NCBI GenBank assembly: GCA_035577985.1
Contig: DATJZY010000093.1
Coordinates: 1 to 64,000, forward strand
Length of the DNA stretch: 64,000 nt
Reading direction: 5' to 3'
Source: Candidatus Eisenbacteria bacterium
GTDB taxonomy: Bacteria > Desulfobacterota > Binatia > DP-6
This document shows positions 16,433-29,146 of this stretch, piece by piece. Position 1 is the stretch's first letter. Every line of letters begins with the position of its first letter. The translations under genes and the position numbers were made by a program. The notes under the pieces were generated by a model. That model was not told the origin of the DNA. It made no database searches and saw only the letters and a program-made list of their open reading frames with translations.

Positions 16433-16504
<72 letters not shown>

Positions 16505-28316: not shown

Positions 28317-28544
28317 GTGCGGACCGTGTACGTCTCGGAGTACCCGGCGATTCAGCATGCCCATGGGCCGAGCGACATGGTGACTGTCCGATTGAAGCGC
28401 CAAGGGGGCGAGTGGCGCGCCATCTGCGCCGGCTGCGACACGGAGTTCGTGTACCGCAAGCCCCAGAAGAGCACCGTCCGCCACTTCCAGTCGCCGCTCC
28501 TCCCCAACGTGAAGGGCAACTTCGACGCCGGGGACGACCACTAG
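28317..28544 (+). CDS. Small protein of unknown function
   Basis: 75 residues from GTG 28317, or 55 from ATG 28377; neither has a good ribosome-binding site. The second part ([20 protein letters not shown], then [20 protein letters not shown]) contains a single CxxC and many basic residues, which might bind zinc or nucleic acid. It is divergent from the DUF255 gene and upstream of the riboswitch. No family recognised. Confidence 0.45.
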
Positions 28545-28612
28545 GGCGTCTGCGAGGGTGGCTTGACAGCTCCTGCCCGGTGGGGCAACAAACCCGCCTA
28601 CCGAAAATATCG

Positions 28613-28731
28613 GTACGCCTAATCCCCGTAAGGGGAGCGGAGGACCCAGAAGTTTCTGGGGTGAATCCGGAATCGTCCGGACGGGCTACGCTCTTTGTGC
28701 CCGAACCCGTCAGCTAACTTCGCCGGCGTAC
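28613..28731 (+). promoter_or_regulatory. Cyclic di-AMP riboswitch (ydaO/yuaA type)
   Basis: The stretch holds the conserved ydaO/yuaA blocks in order: GGAGGACCC followed by a hairpin and TGGGGTGAATC (28649-28676), then GCTACGCTCTTTGTGCCCGA and ACCCGTCAGCTAACTTCGC (28685-28723). The outer stem P1 is visible as GTACGCC (28613-28619) pairing with GGCGTAC (28725-28731). This class binds two c-di-AMP molecules and commonly controls cell-wall hydrolase and transport genes. Here it sits 13 bp before an rlpA-type gene, a typical target. The expression platform appears to be the terminator hairpin at 28764-28797. Confidence 0.94.
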
Positions 28732-28744
28732 AAGGAGCGGGATC

Positions 28745-29146
28745 ATGAAAGCCGAGCTCAATCGAGCCGGGGGAGCGATCCCCCGGCTCTTCGTTTTGGT
28801 GGCCCTTGGGGTCACCCTGTGCACCAGCGGAGTCGCTCGTGCGGACTTCGGGGCCGTGCCGCGCAAGACCGTGATTGCGTCGTGGTACGGGCCGGGATTT
28901 ACCGGACGTCGTACGGCGAGCGGGGATCGCTTCGACCCGCGAGCGCTCACCTGCGCCCACAAGACGCTTCCGCTCGGCACGAAGCTACGCGTGACGAATC
29001 CGCGCACCGGCGCGCAGGTGCTGGTGACCGTCACGGACCGCGGGCCGTATTCCGGCCGGCGCGAGATAGACCTGTCGCACGCTGCCGCGCGCGAGGTCGG
29101 GATCATCGGGCGCGGTGTCGCGCCCGTGCTGATCGAGATCCTGTAG
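28745..29146 (+). CDS. rlpA: RlpA-like septal/cell-wall protein (double-psi beta-barrel)
   Basis: 133 residues. AAGGAGCGGG precedes the ATG, and a signal peptide follows (FVLVALGVTLCTSGVARA, cleavage near residue 33). The mature protein is one RlpA/3D double-psi beta-barrel: IASWYGPGFTGRRTASGDRF, ALTCAHKTLPLGTKLRVTNP, VTVTDRGPYSGRREIDLSHA and EVGIIGRGVAPVLIEIL. RlpA-type lytic transglycosylases cut peptidoglycan lacking stem peptides at the septum; the catalytic Asp of VTDRGP is present. The SPOR domain of long RlpA proteins is absent. Expression is governed by the upstream c-di-AMP riboswitch. Confidence 0.92.
   Translation: MKAELNRAGGAIPRLFVLVALGVTLCTSGVARADFGAVPRKTVIASWYGPGFTGRRTASGDRFDPRALTCAHKTLPLGTKLRVTNPRTGAQVLVTVTDRGPYSGRREIDLSHAAAREVGIIGRGVAPVLIEIL
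28764..28797 (+). terminator. Intrinsic terminator inside the rlpA signal-peptide codons
   Basis: A perfect 10-bp stem, GAGCCGGGGG/CCCCCGGCTC, with the six-base loop AGCGAT, is followed by TTCGTTTT. It lies 33 bp after the riboswitch aptamer and 19 bp inside the rlpA reading frame. The most direct reading is that it is the expression platform of the riboswitch, causing premature termination after the start codon. Confidence 0.7.

Follow-up and report, generated by a model that had tools for sequence, protein, structure and literature searches.

How can a riboswitch act through transcription termination when its only evident terminator lies behind the start codon of the gene that it precedes, and what would the ribosome then contribute? 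This question is raised by a locus in the window, by which we mean the whole 64-kb stretch of DNA that was analysed, where a predicted c-di-AMP (ydaO/yuaA) riboswitch stands directly ahead of a gene for an RlpA-like protein. The features of the locus are collected in Table 1.

Table 1. Coordinates of the riboswitch, the rlpA-like gene and the paired elements in the window
Feature	Position	Strand	Basis
TTGACA, a possible -35 box for the riboswitch	28563..28568	+	-10 region poor
c-di-AMP (ydaO/yuaA) riboswitch aptamer, RF00379	28606..28744	+	Covariance-model match
P1 5' strand ACGCC	28615..28619	+	Sequence and Rfam consensus structure
Pseudoknot 5' strand, aptamer loop CGCUCUUUGU	28689..28698	+	10 bp with 28730-28739
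Putative antiterminator strand UUCGCCGGC, composed of the 3' sides of two aptamer helices	28719..28727	+	Complementary to hairpin 5' arm 28766-28774
P1 3' strand GGCGU	28725-28729	+	Sequence and Rfam consensus structure
Pseudoknot 3' strand ACAAGGAGCG, containing the Shine-Dalgarno (SD) sequence AAGGAG (28732-28737)	28730..28739	+	Pairing and covariation
GGGAUC linking SD to AUG; could pair with GAUCCC of the hairpin (28777-28782)	28739..28744	+	Pairing count
rlpA-like gene encoding 133 aa with a DPBB_1 (lytic transglycolase) domain	28745..29146	+	Pfam domain
Terminator hairpin GAGCCGGGGGA-GCGA-UCCCCCGGCUC, 11 bp, GCGA loop, codons 7-15	28764..28789	+	Sequence, folding, scans
T-rich tail TTCGTTTT, codons 16-18	28790..28797	+	Sequence

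The aptamer and the gene that it precedes

The initial annotation had called the aptamer canonical, and the Rfam search of the 64-kb window agrees, with a score of 97.2 bits against the RF00379 cut-off of 38 (E 9.3e-22) over the full model (1-134). The only other Rfam match in the window is a tRNA gene at 16433-16504 (-). The aptamer is the sole copy in its genome by genome search, and the same genome carries a putative diadenylate cyclase gene, with a DAC domain (PF02457, 149 bits against a cut-off of 27); the riboswitch is predicted to bind c-di-AMP. A consensus promoter scan returned no promoter for the riboswitch, and TTGAC[A/C] is found 53-62 nt ahead of the P1 5' strand end in six of eight family members. 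Just upstream of the riboswitch lies a 75-aa open reading frame (28317-28541, +) that has no Pfam match; a similar reading-frame end, on the reverse strand, was seen by eye upstream of the riboswitch at L005, L007 and L012.

The rlpA-like gene is opened by the ATG at 28745, 7 nt behind its SD sequence, and no second in-frame Met occurs in the whole 133-aa protein. The DPBB_1 domain spans residues 42-129 (E 4.9e-23), the closest solved chain is PA4485 (4avr), and the N-terminus, judged by eye, resembles a signal peptide, so that the protein is probably exported.

A terminator-like hairpin within the coding sequence

The claim that a terminator falls within codons 7-18 of rlpA is borne out, counting from the ATG at 28745, with the correction that the stem comprises 11 bp and not 10. 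A strict scan (at least 7 pairs, at least 5 G-C pairs and at least 6 T in 8) covering both strands of the 64 kb picked out this hairpin and tail and no other site, and of the three perfect hairpins of 10 bp or more in the window it alone is followed by a T-rich tail. The segment 28745-28800 folds at -29.1 kcal/mol (z -3.6), a value equalled by 0 of 200 shuffles. The terminator score applied to the hairpins is uncalibrated, and a loose terminator criterion was set aside as uninformative when used alone, because it returned one site in the 2 kb scanned against 0.9 in shuffles. A GC-rich stem-loop with a T-rich tract directly after it, both kept in all eight copies of the family, make this an intrinsic-terminator-like element inside a coding sequence, at which transcription would be expected to stop.

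Conservation of the hairpin was followed through RF00379 searches of the family (7 genomes, 6 with matches, 8 aptamers), the class (148 genomes, 15 with matches), a near set (58 genomes, 9 with matches) and a draw from the phylum (395 genomes, 52 with matches). The near set, phylum and class together gave 82 distinct matches, of which 80 were used (G363:C224 is partial and G138:C79 falls below the cut-off), and 78 of these entered the alignment A2, one of the others being cut by a contig end and one lacking the core motif. All eight family aptamers share the SD, the ATG, the hairpin and the T-rich tail, in a nearly rigid geometry: the ATG stands 0-2 nt past the Rfam end and 7-8 nt from the SD, the hairpin's GCC always lies 21 nt from the ATG, and the loop is always a GNRA tetraloop (GCGA or GCAA). 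RlpA is encoded directly downstream in six of the eight. Hairpin cells are paired in 97.7% of cases, with nine of the 11 pairs invariant, one appearing as A-U, G-U or G-C in seven copies and unpaired in the eighth, and one broken in a single copy.

Covariation of the pseudoknot described below and of the hairpin is not significant against shuffles within the family alone, since both are nearly invariant there. The expectation of the initial annotation that relatives would keep the hairpin by compensatory changes therefore holds in part: the hairpin is kept, mostly by sequence identity, and compensation is weakly supported because only one pair shows alternative pair types. Loss of the hairpin beside a retained aptamer, named there as evidence against the terminator, is not seen in any of the eight family copies, but beyond the family no hairpin stands at this position. 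By eye, the aptamers of the sister-family copies G032 and G487 are followed by a related hairpin with a T-rich tail, with no SD-spaced ATG ahead. In the copies of a third family (G038, G057, G482, G483, G485 and G486), a stretch of pyrimidines that could pair both with the tail and with a later SD is mostly present, and no clear terminator was seen by eye in the sequences of these six. Also by eye, the tail GGAGAGG in sister families matches, as its complement, a CCUCUCC-like stretch further downstream, itself complementary to a later SD (L002, L004, L010, L011, L042, L044-L046, L048, L003, L043 and L049), an arrangement that looks like a translational switch with the pseudoknot tail as its switching strand.

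That the hairpin constrains the coding sequence, as had been proposed, is also seen in the codons. Across the eight family copies, codons 8-14 occur in at most two forms each and the neighbouring codons 2-7 and 15-24 in three to eight each. Could the hairpin instead be a product of chance, or the by-product of a protein motif? The encoded AGGAIPR is indeed nearly invariant as protein too, but third codon positions in the hairpin are nearly frozen as well, the T-rich tails persist while the encoded residues change, and a RAGGAIPR-type peptide occurs in six of six riboswitch-linked RlpAs against none of 11 other RlpA homologues from the same seven genomes, which indicates that the constraint acts on the RNA; together with the solitary position of the site in 64 kb, this makes either explanation most improbable. 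The core pattern of the hairpin was found at 10 places in 143 class genomes, eight of them being the family riboswitches, and with only two of the ten elsewhere the idea of a general repeat was rejected. One of these two, in G051 from another family of the class (L114, around 1500), has the hairpin core, a GCAA loop and TTCGTGTTTT directly after a stop codon, a terminator-like copy positioned as an ordinary terminator would be; the other, in G027, has no T-rich tail.

The Shine-Dalgarno sequence as a pseudoknot strand

A feature that the initial annotation overlooked is that the SD sequence is itself the 3' strand of a pseudoknot, formed in the window by 10 bp between an aptamer loop and the tail that follows P1. 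Among the 78 aptamers of the phylum alignment, the eight corresponding pairs are paired in 91.0% of cells, and 169 cells show changes in both partners where shuffles give 58.1, with 0 of 500 shuffles reaching the observed value. Since kinship alone can lift related sequences above shuffles where there is no structure, slid registers of the helix served as the control, and these are paired at only 43-66%. In the eight family members the helix is 96.2% paired, with mismatches in G001. A pseudoknot has been described in the crystal structure of ligand-bound ydaO, and the construct sequence printed in that paper displays the same loop-tail complementarity (PMC5393176).

An SD-like core is present in 50 of the 78 tails, so that the class appears predisposed to the use of its tail as an SD, and in this family the tail stands directly ahead of an ATG. 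The intragenic layout may have its origin in the recruitment of the pseudoknot tail as the SD of an upstream ATG. As the SD coincides with a pseudoknot strand, translation is probably controlled directly as well. This SD-occluding half of the design is already known, because a review counts ydaO among the classes in which the complex with ligand docks with the ribosome-binding site and thereby occludes it (PMC10907184). When folding is computed without pseudoknots, the loop-tail helix stays as a plain hairpin in most family copies, and the SD might therefore be covered in both states.

Related arrangements occur elsewhere in the phylum. In six genomes from two other families (L033, L054, L036, L055, L063 and L069), a tail AGGAGGAGG or AAGGAGG is directly followed by the ATG of a short open reading frame, of 34-64 aa in five cases and 196 aa in one, that precedes a larger one; possibly these are translated leader ORFs under direct control of c-di-AMP riboswitches. 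Within the family, the two aptamers that are not followed by RlpA (G005b and G002b) precede a different, probably exported protein with its own start; such a second cassette of aptamer, SD, ATG and hairpin before this protein was noted at L009 and L013, in two genomes of one genus. In both G005b and G002b the SD, ATG and hairpin are retained as the start of a leader ORF, which in G002b terminates in an ATGA shared with the start of the following gene and in G005b is in frame with the next gene. Compared over their alignable 165 nt, the leaders show 7, 4 and 13 differences in 53 first, second and third codon positions, respectively (Fisher p 0.03), and the conserved part contains 6-nt indels; this codon-position bias and the indel length, in a small sample, suggest that the leaders are translated.

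Proposed mechanism and alternative explanations

We propose, with a probability of roughly 0.48, that the locus is a c-di-AMP OFF switch acting at two levels, in which the SD is buried and the intragenic terminator forms when ribosomes are excluded. Binding of c-di-AMP would close the aptamer and let the loop pair with the tail, covering the SD of the rlpA-like gene and thereby blocking the ribosome start; the untranslated mRNA would then fold the 11-bp hairpin behind RNA polymerase, and transcription would stop at about 28797. Without ligand the SD would be free, and a ribosome starting at the ATG and moving over the hairpin would both make the protein and prevent termination, possibly aided by an RNA antiterminator formed by 28719-28727 with 28766-28774. 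The aptamer, the SD within the pseudoknot helix, the fixed distance from ATG to hairpin and the conserved hairpin with its T-rich tail are shown by sequence comparison, and from these we infer ligand binding, the OFF direction, real termination and the role of the ribosome as antiterminator. In its stricter form, which is rather doubtful, no RNA antiterminator takes part: the pseudoknot strand is the SD, the first ribosome antiterminates the codon 7-18 terminator, and the cassette of SD, ATG and hairpin could serve as a translated leader ahead of an unrelated gene as well.

Several points speak against the two-level switch. The ribosome would need to start while polymerase makes the approximately 60 nt from the SD to the T-rich tail, a short interval unless polymerase pauses; the window copy has an interrupted tail (TTCGTTTT), and in G003 the outer stem ahead of the tail is imperfect. 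To these are added the possible covering of the SD in both states, the pseudoknot mismatches of G001 and the prospect of an RNA antiterminator. Strand exchange would use exactly such an element: without ligand, UUCGCCGGC would capture the 5' arm of the hairpin, GCCGGGGGA, and so block the terminator, and ligand would lock the strand into the aptamer and release the hairpin, the ribosome having no part in termination. The duplex has eight of nine pairs in the window (-14.2 kcal/mol) and lies between -11.8 and -18.0 kcal/mol in seven of eight copies; in G002b a change of G to C in the 5' arm mends the antiterminator mismatch and breaks the matching hairpin pair; and partners for both sides of the hairpin would explain its frozen sequence. 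Against this, the duplex performs weakly in comparison with 1000 arm shuffles (fraction 0.025-0.128 over the eight copies), UUCGCCGGC is not the best-pairing aptamer window in five of eight copies, the pairing fails in G001 (-8.0 kcal/mol), and the helix, although paired in 88.9% of cells, is without significant covariation among the eight copies. We regard strand exchange as less probable than the two-level switch, and the alternative pairings as hints of it and not as proof. Pairing of the linker GGGAUC with GAUCCC in the hairpin is possible for 47 of 48 cells (97.9%) over eight sequences, with one G-C to A-U double change in G002b; it was rejected as the main antiterminator, as this lone double change is matched by 73 of 500 shuffles and the helix would compete with the local 11-bp hairpin. 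A 5-bp helix CCGGC:GCCGG alone was likewise rejected, being paired in 97.5% of cells without covariation and with one pair broken in G001.

Control of translation only, with the ligand burying the SD and the terminator serving as a constant brake insensitive to c-di-AMP, is unlikely in our estimation. The same order of parts, an SD in a pseudoknot, AUG1 and a validated terminator, is described for metA of Sinorhizobium (PMC9373788), and the Corynebacterium nlpC c-di-AMP riboswitch appears translational (PMC9960051). On the other hand, the frozen hairpin and its complementarity to both an aptamer strand and the linker suggest more than a constant brake, and metA starts at AUG2, whereas the protein of the window has no second in-frame Met. 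It would take a start past the hairpin, at an alternative codon, to turn the element into an ordinary leader terminator. In-frame TTG and GTG codons do follow the hairpin in the window, three of six RlpA copies have a later in-frame ATG inside the hydrophobic stretch, and in two of eight copies the downstream gene has its own later start; but the ATG is accompanied by an SD at 7-8 nt in all eight copies, and a later start would strip the basic n-region, as judged by eye, from the signal peptide of the window protein, which leaves this explanation very unlikely.

Comparison with known systems

The initial annotation considered termination after the start codon unusual for this riboswitch class. 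In searches of the open PMC subset, no case was recognised of a c-di-AMP riboswitch whose terminator falls within the coding sequence, which is not proof of absence. In another class the layout has a precedent (PMC9373788). A search of the same subset found no paper pairing Binatota with a riboswitch. Termination as such is an established mode of the class, as in kdpFABC of thuringiensis, which is like the window in its aptamer, its presumed ligand and OFF direction and its intrinsic terminator (PMC6488665). It differs in that its terminator precedes the start codon (143 bp upstream in kdp), whereas that of the window begins 19 nt inside the gene, and in that the SD of the window sits between aptamer and terminator. 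The c-di-AMP riboswitch of nlpC in Corynebacterium glutamicum shares the control of a cell-wall gene and a probably translational mode, the authors proposing that CTCC pairs with GGAG of the ribosome-binding site, and unlike the window it has no canonical terminator reported (PMC9960051).

The nearest precedent for the layout is the SAM-II riboswitch of metA in Sinorhizobium meliloti, a member of another riboswitch class, in which the SD lies in a pseudoknot, AUG1 is next and an intrinsic terminator follows just after AUG1; this terminator is validated and not predicted to respond to SAM (PMC9373788). The ligand and the aptamer are different, and metA starts at an in-frame AUG2 past the terminator. 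Such an AUG2 is absent from the gene in the window, and an in-frame ATG before the mature domain is found only in some family copies.

If the two-level switch is real, one metabolite-sensing RNA would link the start of translation to the end of transcription with no need for a dedicated leader peptide, one small RNA could turn a cell-wall gene off at two levels, and RNA regulation would dictate part of the signal sequence of a secreted protein. The locus offers a compact system, probably from Binatia, for asking whether a ribosome can be the antiterminator of a riboswitch. In translation-coupled attenuators of the Escherichia coli pyrBI type, a ribosome close behind polymerase prevents the terminator hairpin, and a leader peptide together with polymerase pausing decides the outcome. 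The locus described here would be alike in having a hairpin blocked by the ribosome, and unlike in that the decision would fall to a ligand covering the SD.
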